Source of the DNA: Candidatus Eiseniibacteriota bacterium | GTDB lineage: Bacteria > JAFGKV01 | Direction: 5' to 3' | DNA length: 15,556 nucleotides | Assembly: GCA_025453925.1 (NCBI GenBank) | Contig: JALOPK010000063.1 | Location: forward strand, 1-15,556 | Shown here: positions 606-15,375 of the stretch, piece after piece | Layout: every line of letters starts with the position of its first letter | Numbering within the stretch: position 1 is the stretch's first letter | Translations under genes and position numbers: made by a program | The notes under the pieces: generated by a model | What the model was told of the DNA's origin: nothing | Seen by the model: only the letters and a program-made list of their open reading frames with translations | Databases searched by the model: none

Positions 606-1547
606 CTAGGGTGCGGGAACAACGGGCACGCCGCAGGGAGTCTGCACGACGGCCGTGAACCCGGAGGCGGCAAGCCTCCCCTGGGCGGCGGCGGCCTCCG
701 CGGTGCCGGCGAACGCCCCGGCGACCACGGTAAACATGGGCCCCTCTGGCGTCACGTCCACCCGAACCCACGCATCAACCGCTGCTCCCCTGGCGGCGGC
801 CTGCCATCGTTCCGCACCGGGGCGGCTCCGCCACGAGCCAAGGTGGAGACAGACGCGCTCCGCATCAGGGGCGACAGGGTCCGCGATGACACCCCCCAAC
901 GGCGAGTCGCCCGTCGGCCCGAGGCGTTGGCCGGCATAGACGGCCTGGGGAGTGCCGGCCGCAGTCGAGGCGAGCAGATGCCACGCCTCCAGGGCTCCGG
1001 CGGAGTCCCTCAAAGCCTCCCTGGCCCGCGCCAGATCGAAGAGGGCCAGTATCCTGGCTTCAGAGACTGCGTCGTACCGGGCGACTTCCGCGGCAAGCTC
1101 CGCAGCCTGTGAGAACTCGCCCAGTTCCATGTGGGCGGCGCACAGGAGCTCCTTTGCCATCCCGTGCCAGTAGGAACGGTCCCTGTCCAACAGCCCCGCG
1201 CTCCGGGCGTCTTCAAGCAAGGATGCGGCTTCACCCACCCGCTCGTTCTCCATCAGCGTGAGGCAAAGCCAGTAGAGGCGGTCCACCCTCGTGTCCGGAT
1301 CCCAGGTCGTGTTCGCCCGGGACTTCCACGCATCCATCGCTTCGCCCGCTCGGCCGAGGGAATACAGTGCTACCATGTACTCCAGCTGGGCGGTGTCGAG
1401 ACGGGCGCTATCCGAAAATGCGTCCCGAAGCTCGCTGATGCAGGCATCTGGATCGAAACTCCCGAGGGTGTCCGCGATGGCCGGCCACCCCGCTGTGGCC
1501 AACCACACCGCGGCGAGGACGGCGCGGCCGGGCTTGCGAGTGGTCAA
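606..1547 (-). CDS. Exported TPR protein with C-terminal SPOR domain
   Basis: A 313-residue protein. Residues 1-25 look like a signal peptide (TTRKPGR, then a hydrophobic stretch ending PAIA/D), so it should act in the periplasm. Residues 35-200 are alpha-helical and alanine/leucine-rich with TPR-like repeats (ALYSLGRAGEAMDAW, LTLMENERVGEAASLL, HMELGEFSQAAELA). Residues 231-302 form one SPOR domain: two similar halves, VCLHLGSWRSRPGAERW and FTVVAGAFAGTAEAAAAQ. SPOR domains bind septal peptidoglycan lacking stem peptides, which suggests a division or envelope role. The chosen start is TTG at 1547, which overlaps the lapB stop as TTGA and sits right before the signal peptide. Longer in-frame starts exist (GTG or ATG up to 1637) but would run far into lapB and bury the signal peptide. 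The specific function is not recognised. Confidence 0.8.
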   Translation of the reverse strand: MTTRKPGRAVLAAVWLATAGWPAIADTLGSFDPDACISELRDAFSDSARLDTAQLEYMVALYSLGRAGEAMDAWKSRANTTWDPDTRVDRLYWLCLTLMENERVGEAASLLEDARSAGLLDRDRSYWHGMAKELLCAAHMELGEFSQAAELAAEVARYDAVSEARILALFDLARAREALRDSAGALEAWHLLASTAAGTPQAVYAGQRLGPTGDSPLGGVIADPVAPDAERVCLHLGSWRSRPGAERWQAAARGAAVDAWVRVDVTPEGPMFTVVAGAFAGTAEAAAAQGRLAASGFTAVVQTPCGVPVVPAP

Positions 1548-2713
1548 GCGGGAGCCGACCGAACGAAGGCCCCGATTCGTGCGCACGCGGGACACCGCCA
1601 CACAAACTCCGCCGACGGCGCACCGCAATGAGGGCACCGGTACTGCGGGAGTCCATGACCAGACAGCCTCGCGATCTCACGGCAGGCAACCGAGGCCTCC
1701 TCGGCTCTGCCGAGGTCGCAGAGGAATGCCGCCATCAGAGCGCGGGGAAAACTGGCCGACGGAGCAGCGTCAACGGCCTGCTGGGCACGCTCCACCGCCT
1801 TCTCCAGTGATCCGATTCGTTCATCGTAGAGCGCCAGCCTGCAAAGCGTCTCAACGTCGCCGGGTCGCTTCTGGAGCATCGTGTCATAGATCTCCAGAAT
1901 GCGACCGTACTCGCCGGCGTCATAGAGAGCGCGTTCGATCCGAGAATAGGCTAGGTCAGCCAACTCAGGAACCTCATCCGCCAAGCGAAGCCACTCAGCA
2001 ACCGCCTTATCCTTCTCCCCCAGCTGCAAGAATACATCACCCGACAGGAGGCGCGCGGGACCGCACTTGGGATCATCCACCAGGGCCTTGCGAATATCGG
2101 CGCGTGCCCGCCTGACATTCCCGGAAACCAAAGCGTCCTGCGCGCGTTCCACCCGGTACAAAGCCGCCCGGGGGCGGGCGGAGTGAGCGCTGAGTTTCTC
2201 CAGACTGCGGGCGACCTCGAGAGCCCGGTCCCATCTGCCAGATTCTTCCAGTGCGCGCAACAGCCGCAACAGGAGTTGCTCTTCATTCCCGAGCGCGGCA
2301 AGGGCCCGCTGAATCACATCGACGGCCGCCTCAGTCTTGCCGGCAGCCCGGAAGTCGTCGGCAAGGGCGATCGCGGCGTCGCGGTGAAGAGCAGCGGGAC
2401 TGCCGGGAATGGCCAAGATCGACTGGTGCAGGCGCGTGGCCTGCTCCACAGCTCCCCTGGCGCGAAGCAAATCGCCGAGCCGAAGCCGCGCTTCGAGGGC
2501 GTATGGTCCCGACTCAACGGCTGCGCGGAACGCACGCGCGGCCTCGTCTTTCCTGCCCCGCAGGAGATGATGGAGCCCTTCAAGATAGTCAGGATACGTC
2601 CAGGCTCGATCTTTCCTCGCGCGTGCGTTGCTGGCGCGGCGCAACAGAACAAATGCCGCCACCGCCATGGCAAGCAGGACCAGCAGCAGCGCCGTGTTCC
2701 CCTCAGGTGTCAT
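1544..2713 (-). CDS. lapB: Lipopolysaccharide assembly protein LapB (YciM)
   Basis: LapB is an inner-membrane-anchored TPR protein that presents LpxC, the committed enzyme of lipid A synthesis, to the protease FtsH and so limits LPS production; in E. coli it is checked by PbgA/YejM. Seen here: an N-terminal membrane anchor at about residues 7-24, TPR-type helical repeats from about 45 to 345, and a C-terminal rubredoxin-type metal knuckle with Cys360, Cys363, Cys374 and Cys377 (YRCPHC and WRCPAC). The length, 389 residues, equals that of the E. coli protein as I recall it. The ATG at 2713 follows AGGAGG with a six-base spacer and overlaps the lapA stop as ATGA. The order lapA-lapB is the same as in E. 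coli, which makes the call firm. It implies that the organism makes lipid A. Confidence 0.93.
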   Translation of the reverse strand: MTPEGNTALLLVLLAMAVAAFVLLRRASNARARKDRAWTYPDYLEGLHHLLRGRKDEAARAFRAAVESGPYALEARLRLGDLLRARGAVEQATRLHQSILAIPGSPAALHRDAAIALADDFRAAGKTEAAVDVIQRALAALGNEEQLLLRLLRALEESGRWDRALEVARSLEKLSAHSARPRAALYRVERAQDALVSGNVRRARADIRKALVDDPKCGPARLLSGDVFLQLGEKDKAVAEWLRLADEVPELADLAYSRIERALYDAGEYGRILEIYDTMLQKRPGDVETLCRLALYDERIGSLEKAVERAQQAVDAAPSASFPRALMAAFLCDLGRAEEASVACREIARLSGHGLPQYRCPHCGAPSAEFVWRCPACARIGAFVRSAPA

Positions 2714-3054
2714 CCCGTTCCTCCTTCGTCACCCCCACCCAGGTCCGCCGTGAGGGCGTCGTCTATCTCCTGGAGCGGAATCCGCTGGAACCCCTGGAGC
2801 TGTTCGGTCATCCGATCGCGTTCCTTACGGACGCCGCGCACTTTCGCCTGCATCTTGAAGTACTCGACGCTGGCGATGAAGAACATGACGACCATGCCCA
2901 GGAGGAAGGCAGCCAGAAGAACCAGCAGCAGAGGTGCCTCCGGGATCTCGCGACCGACCCATAGGCCCCTCACGGTGAGCGATGAGTTCTGGAACCCGAA
3001 AAACAAAAGAACTGCAAAGAGAACCGCCACCAGGAGCCATCTGAGAAACCACAT
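2710..3054 (-). CDS. lapA: Lipopolysaccharide assembly protein LapA (DUF1049)
   Basis: A 114-residue membrane protein of the LapA/YciS family, which works with LapB in control of LPS synthesis at the inner membrane. There are two membrane segments (about residues 3-21 and 40-62) joined by FQNSSLTVRGLWVGREIP, where the FQN element is typical of DUF1049. A charged helix that may form a coiled coil follows (about 64-90, EYFKMQAKVRGVRKERDRM). The tail is acidic and glycine-rich. The ATG at 3054 lies one base after the miaB stop and six bases after AAGGAGG, the best ribosome binding site in the window. Its stop overlaps the lapB start. Short length and fast divergence are usual for this family. 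Confidence 0.9.
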   Translation of the reverse strand: MWFLRWLLVAVLFAVLLFFGFQNSSLTVRGLWVGREIPEAPLLLVLLAAFLLGMVVMFFIASVEYFKMQAKVRGVRKERDRMTEQLQGFQRIPLQEIDDALTADLGGGDEGGTG

Positions 3055-3055
3055 C

Positions 3056-4330
3056 TCACGCCTCCTTGTCAGGCACGCCGCAAAGGGTGTGCCCTCGCAG
3101 GCCAGTTATCGTCACAGACACCATCGAGCCCGGCACGTGATGTCCCTGTACCACAACGACTCTGCCGTTGCGCGTCTTTCCCGCCGAGCATCCGGCATCC
3201 AATCGGTCAGGTCCATCCACCAGAACCTCCATCCGGTGTCCAATGGACCCAGCGACCTTTGAGTGGAGCGCGCCGTGATGCGCGGCGATCAGCCGGGCAA
3301 GCCGTTCGCGCTTGATCTCGAGCGGCACCTGCTCATCCATTGTCGCTGAGGGTGTCAACGCCCGAGGGGAGAACATGAATGTGAACGCCGTGTCGAACTC
3401 GAGTGTGCGCACCAGGGATTCGGTCGCCAGATAATCGTCCTCGGTCTCGCCCGGGAATCCGACGATTACGTCGGTTGACAGACCGAGGTCCGGCATCAGC
3501 GCGCGGGCCTGCTCCACGATCGCGTTGAACTGCGACACCGTGTATCCCCTTCCCATTCTGGCAAGTATCCGATCCGAGCCGGACTGCAGCGGCAGATGCA
3601 GCCTGTGCTCCACCGCGGGCTCTGACGCCATCACCGTCAGAAGTTCGTGACCCACGTCCGCAGGATACGGAGCCGTGAACCGGATGCGCTTCACGCCGGG
3701 CAGCCTGCACAGCCCGCGGACAAGGGCCCCGAATGTCACCCCTCGATACTTGTATGCCGACACACGCTGCCCGAGCAAGTCAAGTTCGACGCAACCGGCG
3801 CGGAGGGCCTCGCTCGCGAGTTCTGACACGTACGATGGGGGGAATGACACCTCGGGACCCCTCGTTCGCGGGACCACACAGAATGTACACCGATGGCCGC
3901 ATCCGCGCATGACCGGAATCCAGGCCTTGATACCGGCAGCGCGCCGCACCTCGGTGCTCCCCCTGATCCAGGGGCGGTCCCCCAAGGCGATTCCTCCCCC
4001 GTCGATCCATGAGGGAATCTCGTCCAGCCGGGAGGGAGACACCATCATGTGGAGGGCGGGCAGCTCCTTGCGGAGGTTTTCGCCGCGCCACTCCGCCGCG
4101 CAGCCGATCAGTGCGACCTTGGGCCGATGCGGCGCTCTGAGCAGCTCCCGGACACGGGCGACTGCCTTGTCCTCGGCTTTCGCCCGGACAACGCATCCGT
4201 TCACCAGCACCAGGTCCGCACCGCGAGCATCGACAGCCTCGGCCCACCCGGCTGCCGCAAGAAGCCCGGCCACCCGCTCGCTGTCGGCCTTGTTCATCTG
4301 GCAACCCATGGTTTCGATGTGAAACTTCAT
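3056..4330 (-). CDS. miaB: tRNA methylthiotransferase MiaB
   Basis: A radical-SAM enzyme that converts i6A37 to ms2i6A37 in tRNAs reading UNN codons, using two iron-sulfur clusters. The 424-residue protein has the N-terminal UPF0004 domain with its three cluster cysteines (C10 in MGCQMN, C46 in NGCVVR, C77 in IGCAAEW). The radical-SAM CX3CX2C is C144, C148, C151 in GCGHRCTFCVVPRTRG. It also has GRGYT, DVIVGFPGET, FTFMFSPR and a C-terminal TRAM domain from about 358. GCQMN and the overall layout favour MiaB over MtaB or RimO. The ATG at 4330 starts directly on MKFHIETMGC, is preceded by GGAG at six bases, and overlaps the stop of the Wzy-like gene as ATGA; an in-frame extension upstream has no homology. 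Oddity: the second motif reads NGC where MiaB usually has NTC. Confidence 0.9.
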   Translation of the reverse strand: MKFHIETMGCQMNKADSERVAGLLAAAGWAEAVDARGADLVLVNGCVVRAKAEDKAVARVRELLRAPHRPKVALIGCAAEWRGENLRKELPALHMMVSPSRLDEIPSWIDGGGIALGDRPWIRGSTEVRRAAGIKAWIPVMRGCGHRCTFCVVPRTRGPEVSFPPSYVSELASEALRAGCVELDLLGQRVSAYKYRGVTFGALVRGLCRLPGVKRIRFTAPYPADVGHELLTVMASEPAVEHRLHLPLQSGSDRILARMGRGYTVSQFNAIVEQARALMPDLGLSTDVIVGFPGETEDDYLATESLVRTLEFDTAFTFMFSPRALTPSATMDEQVPLEIKRERLARLIAAHHGALHSKVAGSIGHRMEVLVDGPDRLDAGCSAGKTRNGRVVVVQGHHVPGSMVSVTITGLRGHTLCGVPDKEA

Positions 4331-5484
4331 GCGCTGCTCCGCCCCTGAGAAGCCGTGGCGGCCAGCCACCCGGCGAGACTCCAGAAGACCACCTGCTGGC
4401 TGTAGTCGCGCCACGTGCAATCCACGAGGCCGTGGAGCACCACCCCCACCAGCAAGAGAGTGGCTCCCCAACCGAAAGGACGCAGCCACGGGCGGGGATC
4501 TCGCCGGACGGTCTCTGCATCCCGCATCATGGCCACGAACACGCCGATCAGCGCCGCCACCCCCAGCAGCCCGGTCTCAGCCCAGGTCTGGAGAAGCATG
4601 TTGTGGACGTGCTTGCCGGCAAGGGTGGGGATTTCTGCCCCGAGATGAGAAAGCATCGCGAACCAGAGCGTATCGTAACCGCTGCCCCCCCAGGGGTTCT
4701 CACCGATCACGCGAAAAACGGCATTCCACATCTGCAGCCGGAAGAGGTTCGTCGAGAAACCGGCGTCCGCCACGCTTCTCGCCCGAGCTCCGAAAGGGCC
4801 GGGAAACAGCGCGAGCACGAGTGCGCAGCCCGTCAGGATCAGAACGGCGCGCCCCCACCCCCAGCGCCGCCGGGCGATGAGCAGGCATGCACCAAGCAGA
4901 CCCAGCCACGCCCCGCGTGAAAGGCCCAAGGCGATGGCCGCAAGCAGCAAGACGGCAAGGGGAACGGCGACACGCCGCGCCTTCCGGCCACCGGAATCCG
5001 CCACGCCGATCGCGAAGAGGGCCATCGTCAGTTCGAATCCCGCTCGGCTGTTTGTATGGCCCATGAGATCAACGGAGTCATGGGTGAGTCGGCCATGCGC
5101 CACCGCCGCGGCAATCGTTCGAATTGCGCTGAACACCGCCCACGAGAGCCACGCTGCCGCGAAACCCATCACCACCCCCGGCACCCGGCGGGACAACGTG
5201 TACGCGCAGACGAAGATTGCCGCAAATGTGGCCAGCGTGACCCACTGCATCCGGGCGTACGCCATGCCTAAGGTCGGGATGGCCACTACCGGGAGGACGG
5301 ACACGGCGCAAAGCCCCAGATAGAGGAGCGGAAGATCACGCGACCATGGCCCACGCGTCCTCAGGATCGGAGTGAGAAGAACCAAAGCAGCAGCAAGGAG
5401 CACGCCGATCATCGCGTCGTGGAGCAGTGACCATCCTGCAACGATGGCTGGCATGGTCGATGGAAGCCTGATGGGATACCACAC
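4327..5484 (-). CDS. O-antigen ligase / polymerase family membrane protein (Wzy/WaaL type)
   Basis: An integral inner-membrane protein of about 385 residues with roughly ten hydrophobic segments, of the Wzy_C (O-antigen ligase) superfamily. These proteins join undecaprenyl-linked glycans to each other (Wzy) or to lipid A-core or another acceptor (WaaL) on the periplasmic side. Family signs are LSRGAWLGL at 188-196, NPWGGSGYDT at 263-272 in the large periplasmic loop, and the HVHNMLLQTWAETG region near 292-305, whose His and Glu match the conserved positions of the family. Polymerase and ligase cannot be told apart from sequence alone. The GTG at 5484 is the first ordinary start codon, but the frame stays open upstream and encodes a further hydrophobic segment, so the true N-terminus may be longer. 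It lies between the GT-C fusion and miaB and overlaps miaB by four bases. Confidence 0.82.
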   Translation of the reverse strand: MWYPIRLPSTMPAIVAGWSLLHDAMIGVLLAAALVLLTPILRTRGPWSRDLPLLYLGLCAVSVLPVVAIPTLGMAYARMQWVTLATFAAIFVCAYTLSRRVPGVVMGFAAAWLSWAVFSAIRTIAAAVAHGRLTHDSVDLMGHTNSRAGFELTMALFAIGVADSGGRKARRVAVPLAVLLLAAIALGLSRGAWLGLLGACLLIARRRWGWGRAVLILTGCALVLALFPGPFGARARSVADAGFSTNLFRLQMWNAVFRVIGENPWGGSGYDTLWFAMLSHLGAEIPTLAGKHVHNMLLQTWAETGLLGVAALIGVFVAMMRDAETVRRDPRPWLRPFGWGATLLLVGVVLHGLVDCTWRDYSQQVVFWSLAGWLAATASQGRSSA

Positions 5485-5549: not shown

Positions 5550-8384
5550 CTACGGCGTCTCGAATCGGAATTGGAGCTCCTCCTCGACCATGGCCACCCT
5601 ATCGATCACCAGATTGCGGTCCTCGCCCTTGGATGGGTTCACGTAGTCGTTCGGGAAACGGAAGCGGACGGCCCGCAGCCCGGGGTCGGGGGAGGCCGCT
5701 GCGGAATACGTCCGCCATTCCCGGTCGGGAACGTCAAGCTCCCGGACTACCTCCCCGCCGATTTCCACGATCAGCCGGGGCCACTGACCTGCGGCCGGCG
5801 TACCACGGGCGGTGATCTCGAACGTCACCGGGCCCCCGGGGAAACGGAAGGAGTGTACGAGCCCGGCATCTCCGACATTGATCCCGCCCGGAACCGGAAA
5901 TCCCGGATGTTGATCCATGTTCTCCGCTTCCACGGTCACTCGGCGCACCCCGGCCGTGCGCCACGCGACCAGCCGGGCGATGGGGGCGGCAGCAAGATGC
6001 TCGCCCCCACCGGTCAGCACCGGCAGGGCGTTTCCCGCCTCGTCTGCAAAGCTGAGGGAAATGACCACATCGTCGGGGTAGCGACGGGGAGCTTCCCGAT
6101 ACAGGAAGTTCAGGGCCAGAGAATCGGCGCCGGTGATGCCGGCATCAAATCCGGAATCTGGGAGACTGAACGACCACCCTCCCGAAGGTGGCCTAAGCAT
6201 GGGGACCGAGTTCTCGGATTGCGCCAGCAGCACAGGCCGAACACCCGTGCGGGACCGCGCCACCGTCGCCCAGGAAACCACCAGCGCCACTTCGTCTCCC
6301 GGCTTCCACGTCTGTGTCGAGAATTCCGCGGAACGCACGGCGACCACGCGCCCGAACTCATAATCGAAGATCGCCTTGCCGCCCATGGTTTGGATGCGAC
6401 CATCCAGAGCATCGGCCTCACCAGTCCTTCCCAGATCGCGATAGAGCCTGGCCAGAAGCTGCGCGGCCTGCACATGGCGGTTCTCCAGGACGAGGGCCTT
6501 CTCAAGGCAAGAGACGGCTGCGGGAAGGCGCCCTGCCGCCGCAATGAGCCGACCTTGCTCGTACAGCGGCCGGGGATCCGAGCTGTCTGCCCGGGCAGCC
6601 CGGGCATACCAGGATACGGCCCCGTCGGCATCTCCTTCACGTTCGGCGATCATGGCCATGCCCATCAAGGCGGGCAGACTGGTCGGCGATCGCCCCAACA
6701 CCTGCTGCAATGCCGCTTGAGCCGAGTCGGACCTCCCTGCCTCAAGATAGAGCCGAGCCATGATCACTCGTGCATGATCCGCCTCATCGCCACCCGAGGC
6801 CAACCGTTCCTGTTCGACGCTCCACTGGGATTCGGAGGCGCGCAACCATGGCGTGGCCAGGCACACTACCGAGCCTCCCCAGGGTGTGGGGAACCGTTTC
6901 AGCTCCTCGAAGTTGCGATCAAGGCTGGCGCGGACGCGTTCGGGAACATGAGCGTACAGGTCGCTTTGATAGAGAATCGCCCAGCAGGCGGGGGAGGCCC
7001 GAACAAGGCTGTCGACCTGGCCCCCCAAGGTCGGCGTGATGATCTCGACCCCGGAAAGGGCCTGACCGAGATGTGCCTGAATAAGTCGCGTCGCCCAGGG
7101 GGGAGTCACCATTGCGGCCTGGGCGAGCACTCCCCGCGGGGACAGATACTCCGCAGCCAACGCCCAGGCATCCTCGACGTTCGGGTTGGTACGATAGCCT
7201 GCGTACGCCTTGCGGGCGGTCGACTGCCCGAACCAGCCGACCAGAAGGCCCAGCACGACCACCGCCGGGAACAGGCTGAGCTTGAGGCCAGCGATCCTGC
7301 GAAGACTGCTCAGGGCGTACTCACCGCACAGAACAAGCCCGCGGGCAGTTGCAAGGGACAGGGGAACAAAGAGGGTATTCAACACGGCCGGGTCTTGCGG
7401 ACGCCTGGCATTGAAGAGCAGCAGATTGATTGCGGGAATGCCCACCACGAACCACAGGAGCAGAAAGACCATCGGCCTTCGGGACCGTTTGTCGACGTAC
7501 ACCCTGCGTAAATCGTCAACCCGTATGATACGCTTTTTCAGACTCCCCACAACGCCCACCACCGCCAGAATCCCCAAGAGCCGGGGACCCCAGACGCCAT
7601 GGCCGAAGAGGTAGTTGTGAAGGAACCCGAAGTACCTGAGATTCATCAGCGGCGGCTTGGCGATGGGCGGATTTGCCTCCCGGCTGGTGAGCATCCACGT
7701 TACCGACCACAGCGCGCACACCGCAACCGCCACCGGCACTGCCGAAACATACTGCCATACGGGAGGCCTCAGCTCGGCGCCGTCCCGCCGCGTGCGCTGG
7801 GAGATGATGGCGCCTCCCACCGCCGCAACGGCGATCAGCAGGGGCACGGCCTGGAAGCCCGAAAGCGCGGCAATGATCCCGGATGCTCCCAATGCGATCC
7901 ACACTGGCCAGGCGGAGGAACGCAGGGCCAGCCCGAACAACGATGCGGTTGCAGCGTGCCAGAACATCTGGAATGCGTCGGGCACCGCCGACTGGGCGGC
8001 CTGGAGCAACCGCAGTGACCCCAACCCAAGGAATGCCGCGGCAAGGCCCTCCATCGGGCCGAACAGCGCCCATCCCGCTGCCGCAATGGCCGCGATTGCG
8101 GCGACAGCCGTCAGCCACGAGACGTTTCGAGCCCTGAGGATGTCCGCGCCGCCTACGCCGAACCCGCGCAACACCGCCCTGTGCGCCGGGCTTTGATACT
8201 CCACGTGCGGAAGGCGAAGCGCAGGCGCAGAGCGCGACGCTGACTCGGCGACGGTGGCGATCTCCCCCTCCATCAAAACGGCGCGTCGGATTCCGACGCG
8301 GAACCACACCGATGAGGCAATCACGGTCAGGGCCATCACCAGTAGAACAGCCCGCGAGGGTAGTGCCAGTTGTTCCTTTTTCAC
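5550..8384 (-). CDS. GT-C (GT39/ArnT-like) membrane glycosyltransferase fused to TPRs and a CBM60-like domain
   Basis: A 944-residue protein. Residues 12-380 are polytopic and resemble the GT39/PMT-ArnT fold: one helix, a periplasmic loop with acidic EGEIATVAES in the place of the usual Asp-Glu catalytic motif, YQSPAHRAV, then ARNVSWLTAVAAI and GWALFG. This class moves a sugar from a polyprenyl-phosphate donor to an acceptor outside the membrane. Residues about 535-660 are TPR-like repeats (ARLYLEAGRSDSAQAAL, AMIAEREGDADGAVSWY). A beta-rich region spans 690-800. The C-terminal module (about 815-935) begins VTVEAENM and has ARGTPAAGQWP, W890 and Y893, then FPNDYVNPSKGEDRNLVID, like calcium-dependent xylan-binding modules. 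The GTG start has GGGAG at seven bases and overlaps the lipoprotein stop as GTGA. The donor and acceptor are unknown. Confidence 0.72.
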   Translation of the reverse strand: MKKEQLALPSRAVLLVMALTVIASSVWFRVGIRRAVLMEGEIATVAESASRSAPALRLPHVEYQSPAHRAVLRGFGVGGADILRARNVSWLTAVAAIAAIAAAGWALFGPMEGLAAAFLGLGSLRLLQAAQSAVPDAFQMFWHAATASLFGLALRSSAWPVWIALGASGIIAALSGFQAVPLLIAVAAVGGAIISQRTRRDGAELRPPVWQYVSAVPVAVAVCALWSVTWMLTSREANPPIAKPPLMNLRYFGFLHNYLFGHGVWGPRLLGILAVVGVVGSLKKRIIRVDDLRRVYVDKRSRRPMVFLLLWFVVGIPAINLLLFNARRPQDPAVLNTLFVPLSLATARGLVLCGEYALSSLRRIAGLKLSLFPAVVVLGLLVGWFGQSTARKAYAGYRTNPNVEDAWALAAEYLSPRGVLAQAAMVTPPWATRLIQAHLGQALSGVEIITPTLGGQVDSLVRASPACWAILYQSDLYAHVPERVRASLDRNFEELKRFPTPWGGSVVCLATPWLRASESQWSVEQERLASGGDEADHARVIMARLYLEAGRSDSAQAALQQVLGRSPTSLPALMGMAMIAEREGDADGAVSWYARAARADSSDPRPLYEQGRLIAAAGRLPAAVSCLEKALVLENRHVQAAQLLARLYRDLGRTGEADALDGRIQTMGGKAIFDYEFGRVVAVRSAEFSTQTWKPGDEVALVVSWATVARSRTGVRPVLLAQSENSVPMLRPPSGGWSFSLPDSGFDAGITGADSLALNFLYREAPRRYPDDVVISLSFADEAGNALPVLTGGGEHLAAAPIARLVAWRTAGVRRVTVEAENMDQHPGFPVPGGINVGDAGLVHSFRFPGGPVTFEITARGTPAAGQWPRLIVEIGGEVVRELDVPDREWRTYSAAASPDPGLRAVRFRFPNDYVNPSKGEDRNLVIDRVAMVEEELQFRFETP

Positions 8385-8863
8385 CTATGCTCTCCCGTGA
8401 TTACAGCCATTCTGATGTAGAGATTGAGATCCCCCTGAGGGGAAAAACGATCGTTCAGCAAGGCAATCCGCAACACACCGGTCCCTGGGCCGAACGCCCT
8501 GTCTACTTGATACCACTCCCAGTCGGGAGACCGGATCCTAAACCTGCCCAGACGTTCACCGTTCCAGGTGCACTCGACCAGTGGCCATGTCCCTTCACAG
8601 GGCGTCCCCCTGGCTTCGATGGCAAGCGAATGGGCGATTTCCCGCAGCTGGAGGGTGTCCACCACCGCACCGGTCCGCCAGAGCGCCCACTCGGTCCCCA
8701 GCAAAGACCCGATGTCCAGTGCGAAGGAGGGGGCGGGAATCTCGAGAATCACTTGTCCCCGAGGCGCGGAATCCGCGGGAGGGGGCCGCCCTCCACATGC
8801 CGCGCACGCCACCAGCAATGCCCCGGGAACCAGGTCTCTCGAGATCACCACGCACCTCGCCAC
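8381..8863 (-). CDS. Small lipoprotein with a CBM60-like module
   Basis: About 160 residues or slightly fewer. The N-terminus has a hydrophobic stretch ending LLVACAACGG, with two possible lipobox cysteines (C20, C23), so it is probably lipidated and envelope-anchored. Residues about 80-155 contain IEARGTPCEGTWP, the SPDWEWYQ strand, then RIALLNDRFSPQGDLNLYI. This follows the same order and spacing as the C-terminus of the next gene (ARGTP..GQWP, W..Y, NDY..P..GEDRNL), so the two modules are paralogous. The likely role is binding of a cell-surface or exported glycan; no catalytic residues are seen. The start is uncertain among GTG codons at 8863, 8851 and 8848; the last has GAGG at six bases. 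It is the first gene behind the promoter at 8903-8930 and is coupled to the GT-C gene through a GTGA overlap. Confidence 0.7.
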   Translation of the reverse strand: MARCVVISRDLVPGALLVACAACGGRPPPADSAPRGQVILEIPAPSFALDIGSLLGTEWALWRTGAVVDTLQLREIAHSLAIEARGTPCEGTWPLVECTWNGERLGRFRIRSPDWEWYQVDRAFGPGTGVLRIALLNDRFSPQGDLNLYIRMAVITGEHR

Positions 8864-8902: not shown

Positions 8903-8930
8903 AGTATACTACTCATCACAGAGGCGTCAA
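8903..8930 (-). promoter_or_regulatory. Sigma70-type promoter inside the end of the third glycosyltransferase gene
   Basis: On the minus strand, TTGACG (8930-8925) and TATACT (8908-8903) are separated by 16 bases; each box matches the consensus at five of six positions. The predicted transcription start is near 8896, leaving a leader of about 30-50 bases before the lipoprotein start. The -35 box overlaps the last codons of the upstream glycosyltransferase, whose stop is doubled (TGATGA). It probably gives separate expression of the lipoprotein-to-mutS run. Confidence 0.65.
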
Positions 8931-10118
8931 AGGAGGCCGGGAACCCACCACCGACTCGTAGAGCTGCTCCAACCGCGCCCCGAACGTCGCCCAGCTCAGC
9001 GGGCCTTCAGCCAATGCCCGCGCGGTCTGACCGAGGCGCTGGCGCAGCGCAGGACTCTCCAGGAGCATCGCGATCTTGTCGGCGAAATCCTGCGGGTCCT
9101 CGTTGGCCGCCAGTGCGAAGGCGTGGGAATCAAGAAGCGTCCCGATGTCTCCCACGGCATTCGTGACCATCGGGCGTCCCGAGGCAAGGTAGTCACCAAG
9201 CTTGATGGGCCCGCGCCCTATGTTGTACTGGGTGTTCTGGAATGGCAACAGCAACACGTCGGCCGCGCCAAGCCACCATGTCATTGACTCCGCGGGTTGG
9301 GGCCCCGTCACGATGAGGTCTCGCCCCATCTGCAGTCCATGGATCCGGGCGAGATCCGCCACCTTTCGCGATCCGGGCCCGACGAGGAGAAACAGCACGC
9401 GCCTCCTGCGTCGCAATGCGGCGAACGCTTCGAGCACCAAACCGATATCGTACTGGACGAAGCCCATGTACTCGATCATTGGGATCTCCAACGGGAGATC
9501 AAGGCGACGCCTGGCCGCGAGCTGCTCGATGGGCGTGATGCGCTCTCCGTCGGCACCGGAGGGGAGGTAGTGCACCCGTGATGGCGGAATCCCCAACGCG
9601 TGGGCACGCCCTTCAAGTGCTCGAGACGTCACCGTCAGCATGGCGGCAGACGCCCGAAAATGCTCTTCAAAGAAGGTCTCGATCCATCCGAAGAACGTCC
9701 GCACCGCCCATGGCCGCGTGGCATGGATGATTCCGCCCTCACCTCCCCACCAATCCGCCCAGTCGGAACACAGAGGGACACCGCGCTCCCTCGAAAGGGC
9801 CAGAGCGGGGAGGATCACGGCAGGGCGGTTGTCAAAAGCGTGCACGACATCGAAGCGCCCCAGATGATGCCCGACTTGATAGCGCCTCAGGCAGTCCCAT
9901 GGATCCCAACCGGTCCTCAAGCTCCCAGAGAGGAGGTCAGGGGTCTCCAGCAGGTGCACCCCGTCGACATCACACTCGTCGAAGTGAAACCGGGCGGTTG
10001 GAGATATGGTCATGAGACTGATCTGGTGCCCTCTGCGCACCAGCTGGCGGGCGAGGCCGAGGGCACGGAAGTAGGTGCTGCGGCCACGCACGTTGTGGTT
10101 CAGCATGAGGACGCGCAT
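8916..10118 (-). CDS. Glycosyltransferase, GT4-like (GT-B fold)
   Basis: A 400-residue cytoplasmic or membrane-associated GT-B enzyme that should transfer a nucleotide-activated sugar during glycan synthesis. The N-terminal Rossmann half begins VLMLNHNVRGRSTYFRALGL; LPSGADGERI at about 185 is the usual start of the second half; IEYMGFVQYDIGLVLEAF, LLVGPGS and ADVLLLPF follow. The donor-binding region reads GRGPIKLGDYLASGRPMV (301-318). This is the variant in which the classical EX7E is replaced, as in proteins with LKL.EYLA.GKP, but here the second Glu position is Asp309. The ATG at 10118 begins a normal GT4 N-terminus and is preceded by GGGGG at seven bases. It is 38 bases downstream of the second glycosyltransferase. 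Sugar and linkage cannot be predicted. Confidence 0.85.
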   Translation of the reverse strand: MRVLMLNHNVRGRSTYFRALGLARQLVRRGHQISLMTISPTARFHFDECDVDGVHLLETPDLLSGSLRTGWDPWDCLRRYQVGHHLGRFDVVHAFDNRPAVILPALALSRERGVPLCSDWADWWGGEGGIIHATRPWAVRTFFGWIETFFEEHFRASAAMLTVTSRALEGRAHALGIPPSRVHYLPSGADGERITPIEQLAARRRLDLPLEIPMIEYMGFVQYDIGLVLEAFAALRRRRRVLFLLVGPGSRKVADLARIHGLQMGRDLIVTGPQPAESMTWWLGAADVLLLPFQNTQYNIGRGPIKLGDYLASGRPMVTNAVGDIGTLLDSHAFALAANEDPQDFADKIAMLLESPALRQRLGQTARALAEGPLSWATFGARLEQLYESVVGSRPPLTPL

Positions 10119-10156: not shown

Positions 10157-11269
10157 TCATCCCGTGGAATCCGCCAGCGTCTGAAACAGCCGGATGTAGG
10201 CGGAGGCCATTTGGTCGGCGCGGTAGTTCCGGTGCACGCGGAGTCTCCCTGCGCGGCCCTGCCTTTCGCAGAGAGCAGGGTCCGCGGCGAGTGTGCAGAT
10301 CGCGTCGGCAATCGGTGCGGCACACCCCGGTGGAACTATCGTGCCGCATCCCCCCTCGAGAAGCTCTCGAAGTCCACCGGCTGACGAACCAACTACGGGA
10401 ACCGACGCGGCCATTGCTTCCATCGTGGCAAACGGCATTCCCTCCCAAAGCGAGGGCTGGACATAGAGATCGAGATGCTGCAGGTACGGCGCCACGGCAC
10501 GGCGCCACCCAAGGAAATGCACGCGTGACCGGCCCTGGCCGCTCGCCGCGGCAATCTTCAGCGACCGCTCATCGGGCCCGCCACCGATGAGCACCAAGGA
10601 TGCCTCGGGCAACCGATCGTAAGCCCGGTGAAAGGCCGAGATCAGCACCCTCTGGCCCTTCTGCCGCGACAGCCTGCCCACGCAGCCGACGAGGGGGTTC
10701 CCCAAAGGTAGTTCACCAGGCCGCACTGCCGAGCCCTTGGCCGTGAATGCGGTCGAGTCCACTCCGTTAGGTATCACGTCGATCAGGTCCGGCCGGACTC
10801 CCTGGTGTCGCACTACGAACGCGGCTAACGAACCGGACACGACCACCACCCGGCGAGCCCGGCCCAGGGCCCACCGCGAGAGGAAGGCCTTGAGCGGGCT
10901 CCGCAACGTGATGCGATAGGGATCTTCGTTCTGCACCGTGCAGACCAGCTGGCACGTCTCAAGACCTCTCATCGCCAGGGCGCCGACAACTTCACCTCTC
11001 AGGAGCTGGCTGCATACCACGTTGATCCCGTTGGCGATGACGAATCGTCGAACCCGCGAGGCGACACCGAGTGCCGCAGGTCCCGGGCGTCCGAAGTAGG
11101 CCGTGGGGACCCCCATCCGTCGGTACAGGCCTTCCGCAGGTCCGCGGCCCGCCAAAGCGCCTGCCCAGACCTCAACTCCCTGAGCCCTGCTGTGCCTGGC
11201 AATCTCCAGCAGCGTGTTGTTGGGGCCCTCCTGCTTGAACGAAGTGTTGAGCAGCAGAACGCGGGCCAT
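10157..11269 (-). CDS. Glycosyltransferase family 4
   Basis: A 370-residue GT-B retaining glycosyltransferase. It begins ARVLLLNTSFKQEGPNNTLLEI, the nucleotide-fold start with an acceptor loop. The second half has VIPNGVDS (165-172), the GCVGRLSRQKGQ loop (195-206), IGGGPDE, and the donor-site EX7E at E276 and E284 in LWEGMPFATMEAM. This is a standard family 4 layout. The ATG at 11269 shares its A with the stop of the preceding gene (TGATG), typical of translational coupling; an in-frame GTG-type extension to 11299 would only lie inside that gene. It is the second of three consecutive GT4 genes, which together would build a repeat unit or core oligosaccharide. Confidence 0.92.
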   Translation of the reverse strand: MARVLLLNTSFKQEGPNNTLLEIARHSRAQGVEVWAGALAGRGPAEGLYRRMGVPTAYFGRPGPAALGVASRVRRFVIANGINVVCSQLLRGEVVGALAMRGLETCQLVCTVQNEDPYRITLRSPLKAFLSRWALGRARRVVVVSGSLAAFVVRHQGVRPDLIDVIPNGVDSTAFTAKGSAVRPGELPLGNPLVGCVGRLSRQKGQRVLISAFHRAYDRLPEASLVLIGGGPDERSLKIAAASGQGRSRVHFLGWRRAVAPYLQHLDLYVQPSLWEGMPFATMEAMAASVPVVGSSAGGLRELLEGGCGTIVPPGCAAPIADAICTLAADPALCERQGRAGRLRVHRNYRADQMASAYIRLFQTLADSTG

Positions 11270-12381
11270 CACTCGCGGTCCGAAAGGGGGAGAGCGCACG
11301 CGGCGGGGGTACCCCGTACCGCCGAATCTTCCAGCAGGCTCAGCATCCGGAGAGGCAGAAGCGTGGCCGAATAGTGACTCCGCTGGCGCTCGCGACCGGC
11401 CAGTCCGAGGGTTTTGCGCATGAGGGGATTACCGTAGAGGAGGAGGAGCGCATCGGACAGCCCGGCGATGTCCCCCGCGTCGATCAGAATGCCGGTGTCA
11501 CGGGTCACCACATCCTCCATCGAACCCACCCGTGTAGCGACCACCGGGAGGCCGACGGCCATTGCCTCCAGAGCTGCCATGGAAAGCGTCTCCACCCCTG
11601 GATCCGAAGGCAAGACGAATACGTCGGTCTTGCGAAGCATGGAGGAGACATCCTCAACCCAGCCGAGCCAGGAAACGCGGTCATCCACGCCCAGGGAACG
11701 TGCCAGGGCTTGGAGGCTCGATCGTTCTGGACCATCACCGGCGATCACGACCCGCAGGCGCGGAGCCTTCGCCGTGATCCTGGCGACCGCTTCCAGCAGC
11801 AGATCCACTCGTTTGTCCTGACGGAGGACTCCGCTGAACGCGACGTGCATCTGCGCGTCAGGCGACTTGTGCATCTGCACGGCGTCCTGATCGGCGACTC
11901 CGTTGGGCACGATGACGATCCGGCGGACGGGGATGCCCATCTCCTTCAGGCGATCCCGGTGTGCCGGAGACAGGGCCACGAAGCGCGAAACCCCGCCCCT
12001 GCTGAGCCGGTCCCACAGCGGGAAGCGGGCACGGACGGGAGTGGAGTGAATGGCCTGGACGACCCGCGCCCCGCAGAAGCGGCCCACCATCCTCGAGAGA
12101 ATGGTGGCGTTGCGCTCATCGATGGAAAACACAACATCGGGCCGCCAGCTTCGCGCCCGAACCAGCAGGTGTGCGACTCCCGCGAGGTCAAAACGCCACC
12201 GCAATGCCCCCTCATGCACCCGCGCCCCGGAGGGTGTGATGCGGGGGCCGAGGGGGCCGGGTCCCCGCAGGAATACCACCGTAGTCTCGAACCGCGGGCC
12301 CACAGCCTCCGGCAGCCAGTGGGCCATCTGCCGCACCGCGCCGTTCACCGCCCCTTGATTCAGAATCACCAAGAGTCTCAC
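11269..12381 (-). CDS. Glycosyltransferase family 4
   Basis: A 370-residue GT4 enzyme. It starts RLLVILNQGAVNGAVRQM, then SIDERNATILSRM, HSTPVRARFPLWDRLSR and IVPNGVADQD (157-166). The GT4 loop is FSGVLRQDKRVDLLLEAV, followed by IAGDGPER and the EX7E pair E264 and E272 in VETLSMAALEAM. The GTG at 12381 is chosen because the GT4 fold begins there; the frame is open for a further 107 codons upstream, but that part runs into the DUF362 gene and has no recognisable homology. The ribosome binding site is weak. It is the first gene of the glycosyltransferase trio, 68 bases after the broken DUF362 gene, and no clear promoter was found in that gap. Confidence 0.9.
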   Translation of the reverse strand: MRLLVILNQGAVNGAVRQMAHWLPEAVGPRFETTVVFLRGPGPLGPRITPSGARVHEGALRWRFDLAGVAHLLVRARSWRPDVVFSIDERNATILSRMVGRFCGARVVQAIHSTPVRARFPLWDRLSRGGVSRFVALSPAHRDRLKEMGIPVRRIVIVPNGVADQDAVQMHKSPDAQMHVAFSGVLRQDKRVDLLLEAVARITAKAPRLRVVIAGDGPERSSLQALARSLGVDDRVSWLGWVEDVSSMLRKTDVFVLPSDPGVETLSMAALEAMAVGLPVVATRVGSMEDVVTRDTGILIDAGDIAGLSDALLLLYGNPLMRKTLGLAGRERQRSHYSATLLPLRMLSLLEDSAVRGTPAACALPLSDRE

Positions 12382-12449
12382 CGGTGATGCGTCGCCTGAT
12401 CGGTCACGCGAGGAGAGGGAAGGCCACACGGGATTGCAGACGCTCGCGC

Positions 12450-13428
12450 CTATCCGCCCAGGTGCCCTTCGCGGCCGTATCGCTGGAAGAGCTCTCCCCA
12501 AGGTGTCGTCCGCCGCCAGTTCTCGTACACGTGTTTCTCCTTCAGCGGCCAATGCAGATAGTCGTGATTGAACTCCGAAATCAGAATGGGAAGACCGACC
12601 AGGGGGGTCCTGAAGATGAGCTTCTGAAGAGACCTGGTTGGTCCGTACCAGGAGAGCCAGCCGAGGAAGCGGTGGAAGGAATGGCCTACCGAGAAACCCC
12701 ACCTCTCACCGGTGATATCATCCCCGACGAGGGTGATCCCTGTCGGATCACCGCATCCGAGGCCTCGCTCATGCGCCAGCCGGATGTACCCTATGCTCAT
12801 GGGGTCAAAACCCATCAGCTTCGCCGCTACGGCATCAATGGCCACCTGGTCCGCACTGGCCAGGATGACGTTCTTGACCACGGGCGTCATGGTGCGGGGG
12901 CCGGGTCCGTTTCCGGCTGTGGTACCGTCCATTACGGCGAAAATCCCCGGGTGAATCTCCTTCTGAATCAGGAGCAAATCGACCAGAGTCTCGTGGATCC
13001 ATGTGTGGGTGTAGTGGCGGGATGCGGTCGAGCACGAGCAAGGGCGCCGCGGGACGGAACTGAACCCACTGCATGTCGGCCGGTTTGAAGTTGTATGACA
13101 CGGGGATTCCGTAGTGGCGGAAGATCGGCACATAGAGGTTCAGATCCTCGCCCTTGAACGCATTGATCACCACGGTTTTGTTCTGCACGCATACCAGATC
13201 GTCGAATCCGGCTGCCCGGAGGGCCATGATGCTGCCTTCGAGCTGCCATGGGGTGGTGTTGGCACCGGGGAATGGGTAGTGCCAGGATATGTTGTCCTTG
13301 ATGATGGTGGTCGCGCCGGGGCGGAGCGCCGACGTGACTCCGGCGAGTTCCATGAGTCGCGCATAATCCGCGAGCACGCGGTCGGGGGTGGTTCTGAGAA
13401 CGGCGACAACAGACGCAGGGGAGGCCAT
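12450..13428 (-). pseudogene. DUF362 family protein, broken by internal deletion and frame change
   Basis: DUF362 proteins are of uncertain function; some are linked to iron-sulfur cluster proteins. The 5' part (13428 to about 13020, 136 codons) reads MASPASVVAVL, ATTIIKDNISWHYPFPG, VCVQNKTVVINAFKGEDL and LLVLDRI. The 3' part is in another frame (about 13019 to 12450), from RHYTHTWIHETLVDLLLIQK through FAVMDGTTAGNGPGP, AIDAVAAKLMGFDP and IGYIRLAHERGLG to the TAG. Between LLVLDRI and RHYTH the family normally has about 45-50 residues including the Lys-Thr-His/Lys-Asn core (as I recall it); these are absent. So the break is probably an out-of-frame internal deletion rather than a single-base slip. 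The ATG has AGAGGAG at five bases. Neither fragment is likely to fold as a working protein; an assembly error is possible. Confidence 0.75.
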
Positions 13429-14029: not shown

Positions 14030-14557
14030 TCAGCCCGCGAAGAAGCCCATGAGAACGTCCTTGTACTGCTGCATTTGCTCCTCGTCAGGCAGGCAGATTC
14101 GCACGTCCCGCACACTCCGTGCCTCGGGCAGGACCTCGATCATCGGGCCGAACATCTCTGCCGCCACCACCTCAGGAGGTGGGGCGGCATTCCCCACGCC
14201 CAGTGGCGGCATTGCGATGGATGTGGCGCGCGCGCCTTCGGCTGCCTCCAACACCTTGGACACTGCCAGCCCGACGGTCTCCCTGCTGACCTTCAGATCC
14301 TGCGTCATCACCGCGACGTGGGCGATGCGGCCGCAGGGCAGGGAACCTGAGCCAGTGAGCACTACTCCTCCCAAGGGGATGGGGCCTTTGCTGAGCGCCT
14401 CTCGCTCGATGCCGTCACCGCCTTCGCGCTTGAGGACTCCGGAGATACCGTGCTTCATCCATAGGTAGGTATTCGCCGGATTGACGATGATGTCGACCTT
14501 CTGTGCGATGAGGCTCTCCTGAACGAGCCTGATCGTCGCGTGTCCCAGTTTGATCAT
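14030..14557 (-). CDS. Macro domain protein (ADP-ribose-binding family)
   Basis: A 175-residue single-domain protein. Macro domains bind ADP-ribose and related molecules and may remove ADP-ribose from proteins or O-acetyl-ADP-ribose. Seen: VDIIVNPANTYL with Asp22 and Asn29, matching the adenine-contacting Asp and the conserved Asn; EREALSKGPIPLGGVVLTGSG; LPCGRIAHVAV; and AMPPLGVGNAAPPPEVV as the second phosphate loop. The first glycine loop, normally GGGVAGA, is replaced by KHGISGV (35-41), so binding may be altered. The ATG at 14557 has AGGAAG at five bases and starts at the first beta strand; an in-frame GTG at 14602 adds only a non-homologous leader. It diverges from the kinase-like gene on the other strand and heads the minus-strand run. 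Confidence 0.82.
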   Translation of the reverse strand: MIKLGHATIRLVQESLIAQKVDIIVNPANTYLWMKHGISGVLKREGGDGIEREALSKGPIPLGGVVLTGSGSLPCGRIAHVAVMTQDLKVSRETVGLAVSKVLEAAEGARATSIAMPPLGVGNAAPPPEVVAAEMFGPMIEVLPEARSVRDVRICLPDEEQMQQYKDVLMGFFAG

Positions 14558-14613
14558 GTCATCTTCCTTGTTGGCGCCGGAAACGGGCCAGACGTTGCCC
14601 ACGGCGGGGCATC

Positions 14614-14642
14614 TTGACAGGGGCCGAGGATTCTCCTATCGT
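14614..14642 (+). promoter_or_regulatory. Sigma70-type promoter for the cytidylate-kinase-like gene
   Basis: A perfect -35 box TTGACA (14614-14619) is followed, after a 17-base spacer, by TATCGT (14637-14642), which matches four of six positions of the -10 consensus. The spacer contains a short palindrome, AGGATTCTCCT. The predicted transcription start is near 14649, only a few bases before the ATG at 14653. It sits in the divergent gap with the macro-domain gene. Confidence 0.55.
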
Positions 14643-14652
14643 AGACACGGAC

Positions 14653-15375
14653 ATGGCCGCCATACCCCTTTGCACGGTGAATCACGTGAGTATCTCGTCG
14701 CTCTTCAAGCGAAAAGGGCAGAGTGCGACCCACGCCTCCGGCGATGCTCGACGCGGCGCTTCCCCGCGGCGGCTCCACGAAGGACGGCCGTGCATTACCC
14801 TTGCAGCGCAATGGGGATCGCGGGGCGAGCCCGCCGGACATCGCCTGGCCGCGAGGCTCGGATTCACCGAGTACGGCGCCGAGATTCTCGGCATACTGGC
14901 CGACCGGTCCAAGGTGCACCGAGACGTGCTCGCCGCTCTGGATGAAGACAGCACCGTGAACTTCAACTACCTGGTGAGCAGCCTCCTCGGGAACCCCTAT
15001 GTAGTCGCCGAGGATTTTGCCAGGGATCTCGTGCGGGTCATCCAGCAGATCGCCGAGGCCGGTGAGTCCGTCATTGTCGGCCGGGGTGCGGCCTTTGCGC
15101 TCCACGGCCCCCGCGTCCTCAACGTCCGCGTCATCGAGCCCTACCAGCAGCGGCTGACCCGACTCCGTGAGTCGAGGATGATGTCCTACACCGAGGCGGA
15201 AATCACTCTGGCGGAGATCGACAGCGCCAGGAGCCAGTTCGTGGAGGATTACTTCCGGCGTGACATCGACGACCCCGAGGCCTATGACCTCGTGATCAAT
15301 GCCCAATTCCTCGACGAGGATGCGATTCTGGACGTGATTCTCCGCGCGTTCGAGGCCAAACGTCTCGCGGGCTGA
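14653..15375 (+). CDS. Cytidylate-kinase-like family protein
   Basis: About 240 residues, related to the Cytidylate_kin2 family of P-loop nucleotide kinases; the actual substrate of this family is mostly untested. After a basic, probably disordered N-terminal 45 residues comes CITLAAQWGSRGEPAGHRLAARLGF, the P-loop region, where relatives have ISRxxGSGG; then EYGAEIL (relatives: YDxEII), SVIVGRGAAFAL (139-150), VRVIEPYQQRLTRL, and RSQFVEDYFRRDIDDPEAYDLVIN (relatives: YYxxxxxxDWxDPxxYDLVIN). The ATG at 14653 fits the promoter just upstream as a nearly leaderless start; TTG at 14614 is in frame but is the -35 box itself, and GTG at 14677 or 14686 are alternatives. The P-loop change raises doubt about kinase activity. 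It is the only plus-strand gene and converges on the DUF3467 gene 11 bases away. Confidence 0.8.
   Translation: MAAIPLCTVNHVSISSLFKRKGQSATHASGDARRGASPRRLHEGRPCITLAAQWGSRGEPAGHRLAARLGFTEYGAEILGILADRSKVHRDVLAALDEDSTVNFNYLVSSLLGNPYVVAEDFARDLVRVIQQIAEAGESVIVGRGAAFALHGPRVLNVRVIEPYQQRLTRLRESRMMSYTEAEITLAEIDSARSQFVEDYFRRDIDDPEAYDLVINAQFLDEDAILDVILRAFEAKRLAG

Follow-up and report, generated by a model that had tools for sequence, protein, structure and literature searches.

A CBM36/60-type module shared by a putative lipoprotein and a GT-C-like membrane protein encoded by overlapping genes in a polysaccharide-assembly cluster of Candidatus Eiseniibacteriota

Why would two adjacent, overlapping genes of a bacterial glycan-assembly cluster each encode the same type of carbohydrate-binding module (CBM)? 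The question is raised by a 15,556-nucleotide stretch of DNA from a Candidatus Eiseniibacteriota bacterium (GenBank assembly GCA_025453925.1, contig JALOPK010000063.1), hereafter the window, which is one whole contig of a draft genome (G000) that is 82% complete. A preliminary description of the sequence had noticed that a putative lipoprotein of 160 residues and the 944-residue membrane protein encoded next to it carry the same ordered motifs and are translationally coupled. Both points were borne out. The motifs ARGTPxxGxWP, W..Y and ND....G.D.NL.I are common to the two proteins, and BLASTP aligned residues 854–936 of the larger one with residues 79–158 of the lipoprotein (E = 2e-8, over 83 residues). 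The score of this module pair (95) was reached by none of 2000 shuffles of the lipoprotein (maximum 62), and six further window proteins scored 29–45 in the same comparison. Both modules exceed the Pfam cut-off of 28.2 bits for PF16841 (CBM60), with 48.5 bits for the 944-residue protein and 35.9 bits for the lipoprotein, and they are the only matches to this family in the available 82% of G000. The GTG start of the 944-residue protein overlaps the lipoprotein stop by 4 nt (GTGA), and the coordinates of relatives show the same overlap. The module limits first proposed (about 80–155 and 855–935) were somewhat too short, since the whole modules span about residues 37–159 and 816–935.

The smaller protein is a putative bacterial lipoprotein, judging from its N-terminal residues. 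Its lipobox, read by eye, is LVAC20 or C23-G24 in the window, LAC in G001 and SGC in G002 (two other genomes of the phylum), and Cys23-Gly24 is invariant across the three genomes.

The fold of the lipoprotein module was modelled with AlphaFold2 from an input of six window-derived and related rows, and the core of the model has a predicted local distance difference test score (pLDDT) >90. CBM36 structures are its best PDB matches in Foldseek (E ~5e-6 to 1e-5); VIA-align 2 gave Z-scores of 16.5–17.4 to CBM36, with 1.8–1.9 Å over 113–116 residues to XynJ and 7ay3, and the superposition runs end to end (37–159 on 262–384). CBM6 and CBM35 rank behind CBM36 (Z 14–15). Insecticidal toxin domains (Z ~13.7), also ranked below CBM36, were taken as generic jelly-roll matches. 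The CBM60 structures 2xfd and 2xhh are absent among the 50 structures listed, which excludes nothing. The lipoprotein module is thus predicted to be a jelly roll of CBM36 topology, and the module of the 944-residue protein would have the same fold by homology. Of the superposition on CBM36/CBM60 structures that had been proposed, the lipoprotein model provides the CBM36 part (Z 17.4), while the other copy is placed by homology only.

The relationship to CBM60 is less simple than the preliminary description had assumed. CBM36 and CBM60 are linked by circular permutation, according to the title of Montanier 2010 as cited in PMC4725902. When a profile of 14 modules was compared with the PDB, CBM36 (7ay3, 1ux7) and CBM60 (2xfd, 2xhh) formed the sole coherent group, at weak E-values of 0.35–0.8. 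In the HMMER alignments, CBM36 matches from the first profile position, but residue 4 of 2xfd is paired with profile position 21, which lies inside the module; hence the CBM60 signature appears to be carried in the CBM36 strand order. The predicted lipoprotein model agrees, as strands stand before the ARG strand where 2xfd starts and the circularly permuted CBM60 order is not found. The CBM60-like assignment therefore holds for profile and signature (PF16841) but not for strand order, which is that of CBM36. Searches of the PDB with phmmer gave no match for the module of the 944-residue protein alone and a single weak unrelated match for a strong CBM60 from G374. A nine-domain profile returned weak CBM36 matches and a collagen-adhesin (E 0.0014 for the sequence, 7.2 per domain), the latter judged to be due to chance.

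Are the residues that bind calcium in such modules present? In 7ay3, D367 and D372 bind the sugar-site calcium through their side chains, while Q267, E269 and D376 hold the second one (PMC9165906). The Asp of the N-D motif in each module (D138 in the lipoprotein, D913 in the 944-residue protein) was aligned with D367 by HMMER; in the end-to-end superposition N147 and N924 fall at D372, i.e. Asn replaces Asp, and D145/D922 is a further conserved acid of the modules. The aligned equivalents of Q267, E269 and D376 are E819, E821 and D928 in the 944-residue protein and E41, P43 and R151 in the lipoprotein. All of E819, E821, N912, D913, D922, N924 and D928 are invariant in three orthologues of the 944-residue protein, and N912, D922 and N924 in a nine-sequence set. 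N, D and N are also invariant in a set of 38 sequences, partly by construction because fragments were chosen by that motif (about ten of the 48 matches for the module set were without the N-D-N motif or mis-picked). This pattern suggests that both modules retain the residues of a predicted calcium site for sugar binding, whereas the other, structural site seems to persist in the 944-residue protein and to be lost from the lipoprotein. The resemblance to calcium ligands noticed earlier is supported by the alignment of N-D and D-x-N with the sugar-calcium positions of CBM36, but it seems not to extend to the second site of the lipoprotein.

Table 1. Coordinates of the main features of the window
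Feature	Coordinates	Strand	Basis and remarks
Putative lipoprotein, 160 aa	8381-8863	(-)	Signal peptide, Cys at 20 or 23, short linker, lone CBM36/60-type module
CBM36/60-type module of the lipoprotein, residues 37-159	8387-8755	(-)	PF16841 35.9 bits and AlphaFold2 model; site residues N137, D138, D145, N147
944-aa membrane protein	5550-8384	(-)	GT-C-like N-terminal part, soluble region, tetratricopeptide repeats (TPRs), beta-rich region, C-terminal CBM36/60-type module
Multi-pass GT-C-like domain, residues 1-400	7185-8384	(-)	Weak PMT_2; acidic motif E39-x-E41, PD at 135-136
TPR region, residues 538-660	6405-6773	(-)	PF13432, PF14559 above cut-off; best-modelled part of the full-length prediction
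CBM36/60-type module of the 944-aa protein, residues 816-935	5580-5939	(-)	PF16841 48.5 bits; E819, E821, N912, D913, D922, N924, D928
O-antigen ligase-like membrane protein (Wzy_C)	4327-5484	(-)	PF04932 69.1 bits, cut-off 31.7; ligase and polymerase not separable
Three GT4-type glycosyltransferase genes	8916-10118, 10157-11299, 11269-12702	(-)	PF13692/PF00534/PF13439
LapA-like	2710-3054	(-)	PF06305 above cut-off
LapB-like (TPR and LapB zinc ribbon)	1544-2713	(-)	PF18073 above cut-off

The gene pair lies between a Wzy_C gene downstream and three GT4 genes upstream, with MiaB-like, LapA and LapB genes further out (Table 1). The LapA and LapB homologues, as recognized by their Pfam matches, are a context of lipopolysaccharide (LPS) assembly. 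The pair, its 4-nt overlap and the order of the cluster are kept in all three genomes of the phylum that were compared (G000, G001 and G002), in keeping with the paired occurrence that had been anticipated. A tree built from 38 modules groups the lipoprotein copies of the three genomes in one clade and their GT-C copies in another (97/93 and 100/99), which dates the pair to before these three genomes diverged. The tree separates the two clades without placing them relative to each other, and its deeper joins are unsafe because of long branches.

The N-terminal part of the 944-residue protein is less easily classified. PMT_2 matches it with 28.0 bits in the genome search and 23.6 bits in hmmscan (cut-off 26.1); the orthologue in G001 scores 17.9 bits and that in G002 gives no match. 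The acidic motif of the first outer loop is ExE in G000 and G001 and EE in G002, in place of the D-E found in an alignment of paralogues from the same genomes, while the later-loop PD of the paralogues is kept. E41, this PD and many other residues of the membrane domain are invariant in the three orthologues, and Glu may stand for Asp in the acidic motif of GT-C enzymes (PMC6801728). The protein is best described as a diverged GT-C-like protein and putative transferase, the activity being putative because the PMT_2 match is weak and ExE or EE stands instead of D-E. The label 'GT-C protein' given initially is thus favoured by the multi-pass domain and the weak PMT_2 match, but the acidic motif and an hmmscan score below the cut-off speak for a more guarded wording. 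PMT_2 matches are numerous, with 25 to 28 per genome in G000, G001 and G002, several of them in frames of 800–950 residues.

Does the module occur in similar company elsewhere? Of 386 genomes sampled from across the domain, 20 contain PF16841. Some carriers are, as judged by eye, of a degradative or secreted kind: hydrolase-like proteins in G185 and G374 and DUF1592-like proteins in G154, G006 and G235; the modules of G138 and G275 resemble this kind in sequence. Others stand near GT-C, Wzy_C or Wzz/Wzc-like genes in other phyla. Fusions of GT-C and CBM60 occur in two of these (G100 and G498, loci L042 and L071), both with no TPR match; that of G100 has a PMT_2 match of 4.8e-13 and adjoins WecG and bacterial sugar transferase genes, and that of G498 stands, by eye, beside GT4- and WecB-like genes. 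In G350 the gene of a CBM60 protein overlaps that of a Wzy_C protein. Likewise, in one genus the gene for a 135–137-residue CBM60 protein with a single transmembrane segment overlaps, at its start, a Wzy_C stop (L070:1943-3834, L017:7326-9166 and further genomes), an arrangement conserved across the genus. This genus is probably Thermus, as the named control Thermus composti gave a positive signal. TPR-CBM60 proteins are encoded on either side of a Wzz/Wzc-like gene in G014 and G301 (weak matches: EpsF 0.0016, Wzz 0.34), and similarly spaced pairs were found in G530, G531 and G532. At a second locus of G002 (L019, G002:C273, 1-2673), a truncated open reading frame (ORF) with two CBM60-like repeats is followed by a Wzz-like and then a Wzy_C gene.

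The array of two TPR-CBM60 proteins around a Wzz/Wzc-like coiled-coil gene is conserved in one family of another phylum (L015:6772-11485, L049 and L050), and in L015 a phosphodiester glycosidase (NAGPA) gene comes after it. G036:C242 and G181:C20 (L016, L053) encode proteins of ~860–885 residues with one transmembrane segment, a TPR-like middle and several degenerate CBM60-like repeats.

The proximity of CBM60 to Wzy_C was evaluated with the window's own family excluded. CBM60 lies within 10 kb of Wzy_C in 4 of 12 families, where 0.45 would be expected at random (P = 5e-4), and within 3 kb in 2 of 12 (0.14 expected, P = 0.008). Since this null ignores the general clustering of glycan genes, the result speaks more for a biosynthetic setting than for any specific partnership; it is the repeated gene overlap with Wzy_C that supports the partnership.

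Taken with the conserved gene order, these observations incline us, with fair though far from complete confidence, to regard the two modules as probably calcium-dependent, glycan-binding jelly rolls that act in the periplasm with the Wzy_C protein during assembly of a surface polysaccharide. The product would be LPS O-antigen-like or an exopolysaccharide. The module of the 944-residue protein would serve as an acceptor-holding domain at the active face, or as part of a scaffold, and the co-translated lipoprotein would carry the second module on the inner or outer membrane. Both would grip lipid-linked or nascent glycan and work with the adjacent Wzy_C ligase or polymerase. That they hold the same glycan, and the place of each in the envelope, we infer, as did the preliminary description. 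CBM60 is reported to coordinate adjacent equatorial hydroxyls via calcium (PMC4444583), from which a gluco- or xylo-configured residue is predicted in the bound glycan.

Several points weigh against this interpretation. The glycan-gripping function of both modules is putative. The GT-C match is weak and the acidic motif atypical. The full-length AlphaFold2 model of the 944-residue protein (three sequences) has a mean pLDDT of 44, so no fold claims were drawn from it and the fold of its module is taken from homology only. The survey also placed CBM60 on secreted hydrolases and on proteins of DUF1592 type, and the domain alone is therefore no proof of a biosynthetic role. The proximity statistic comes from few families, one case being at 9.5 kb. 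Finally, the CBM of the GT-C enzyme GT136 was dispensable for activity under the tested conditions (PMC11127046).

Other functions were considered for the locus. The 944-residue protein could be a protein glycosyltransferase of TMTC or PMT type, with TPRs that bind protein acceptors and CBMs that bind the transferred sugar, in which case the glycan of the cluster would be destined for surface glycoproteins and not for LPS. Protein O-oligosaccharyltransferases are found among Wzy_C proteins, PMT_2 is the best Pfam similarity, and human TMTC1-4 have a similar architecture of GT-C plus TPR (PMC7801869). However, LapA and LapB adjoining the cluster indicate LPS, no TPR match was found for the fusions of L042 and L071, whose neighbours are WecG, sugar-transferase, GT4- and WecB-like genes, and the acidic motif departs from the canonical D-E; we consider this explanation unlikely. 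The same departure from the D-E of the paralogues, together with the fall of PMT_2 from 28 bits in G000 to no match in G002, might instead point to a degenerate, non-catalytic GT-C scaffold, for which the long TPR region would be well suited and in which the two CBMs would merely organise the Wzy_C enzyme and its glycan. Such a loss of catalysis seems quite improbable, as Glu is accepted at the motif in GT-C enzymes (PMC6801728) and E41, the later PD and many other membrane-domain residues are invariant in the three orthologues.

A role in capturing plant polysaccharide from the environment, with the lipoprotein as a surface binder of xylan or glucan like the CBM60 of xylanases, is suggested by the provenance of known CBM60 and CBM36 (PMC4725902, PMC9165906) and by the same domain on the secreted hydrolase-like proteins of G185 and G374. 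We give it very little credence: the cluster is without a hydrolase, transporter or esterase, its neighbours are glycan-assembly or housekeeping genes, and one of the two copies forms part of a membrane transferase-like protein.

The reading as periplasmic glycan-binding modules of polysaccharide assembly may be compared with known systems. The window modules share with CBM36 (Paenibacillus Xyn43A 1ux7, XynJ 2dcj and 7ay3) the predicted fold (Z 16.7–17.4 for the lipoprotein model), the N-to-C strand order and an Asp aligned with D367; they differ in sequence (~15% identity), in having Asn at D372 and in being borne not by xylanases but by a membrane protein and a lipoprotein encoded in a biosynthetic cluster. 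With CBM60 (PF16841; 2xfd, 2xhh) they share the sequence profile and the RARG ... FxND signature, but the CBM60 structures solved so far show a circular permutation with respect to CBM36 that the window modules appear not to have. Mycobacterial EmbA/B/C are comparable in architecture: these GT-C membrane enzymes have at their C-terminus a CBM6/36-like module that contains calcium and is linked to recognition of the acceptor (PMC3044687); they have no TPR and no lipoprotein twin, and the calcium loops of EmbC block the ligand site. GT136 ORF12 of Citrobacter youngae is a GT-C enzyme with a C-terminal CBM that binds O-antigen, but this CBM is Ig-like and belongs to a three-component pentofuranose system (PMC11127046). 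Binding of the acceptor glycan is the understood role of the CBM in both EmbC and GT136 (PMC3044687, PMC11127046). The periplasmic, CBM-like jelly roll of Wzc is proposed to hand over repeat units to nearby Wzy, and its deletion nearly abolishes capsule; it lies within the co-polymerase and was compared with CBM29, not CBM36/60, whereas here the modules reside in a separate lipoprotein and a GT-C-like protein (PMC12881504). A GT-C domain followed by TPRs is also the layout of the TMTC1-4/PMT family (PMC7801869). There, the substrates are proteins and the site is the endoplasmic reticulum. To our knowledge, no member of that family has a CBM.

GT-C or polymer machinery with a CBM is thus already known, and it is the form with a lipoprotein and a GT-C-like protein that is new within the part of the literature that was searched, in which PF16841 is not mentioned. 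A broader and more speculative idea, on which we place only limited weight, is that CBM36/60 modules, familiar from hydrolases of plant walls, are widespread, undescribed periplasmic acceptor-gripping subunits for the assembly of envelope glycans in about five phyla, borne by GT-C enzymes, by small membrane-anchored partners whose translation is coupled to that of Wzy_C ligases and by TPR proteins around Wzz/Wzc-like co-polymerases. Because they combine the CBM60 signature with the CBM36 strand order, the modules may be close to the form that gave rise to permuted CBM60. Little is understood of how Wzy/WaaL-type enzymes and GT-C transferases keep hold of a growing glycan in the periplasm. A testable handle is offered by a small soluble module of ~120 residues, whose coupling to Wzy_C extends even to a genus that is apparently cultivable (probably Thermus). 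It also follows that the annotation of this domain as 'xylan-binding' need not imply degradation of plant polysaccharide.

Two minor observations concern the remainder of the window. A DUF362 protein is encoded at 12450-13428 in two overlapping frames and by a single 370-residue ORF in L020, suggesting a frameshift, either real or an assembly error. A macro-domain gene (14033-14602) adjoins a divergent cytidylate-kinase-like gene (14614-15372), and the two are side by side in L020 as well.

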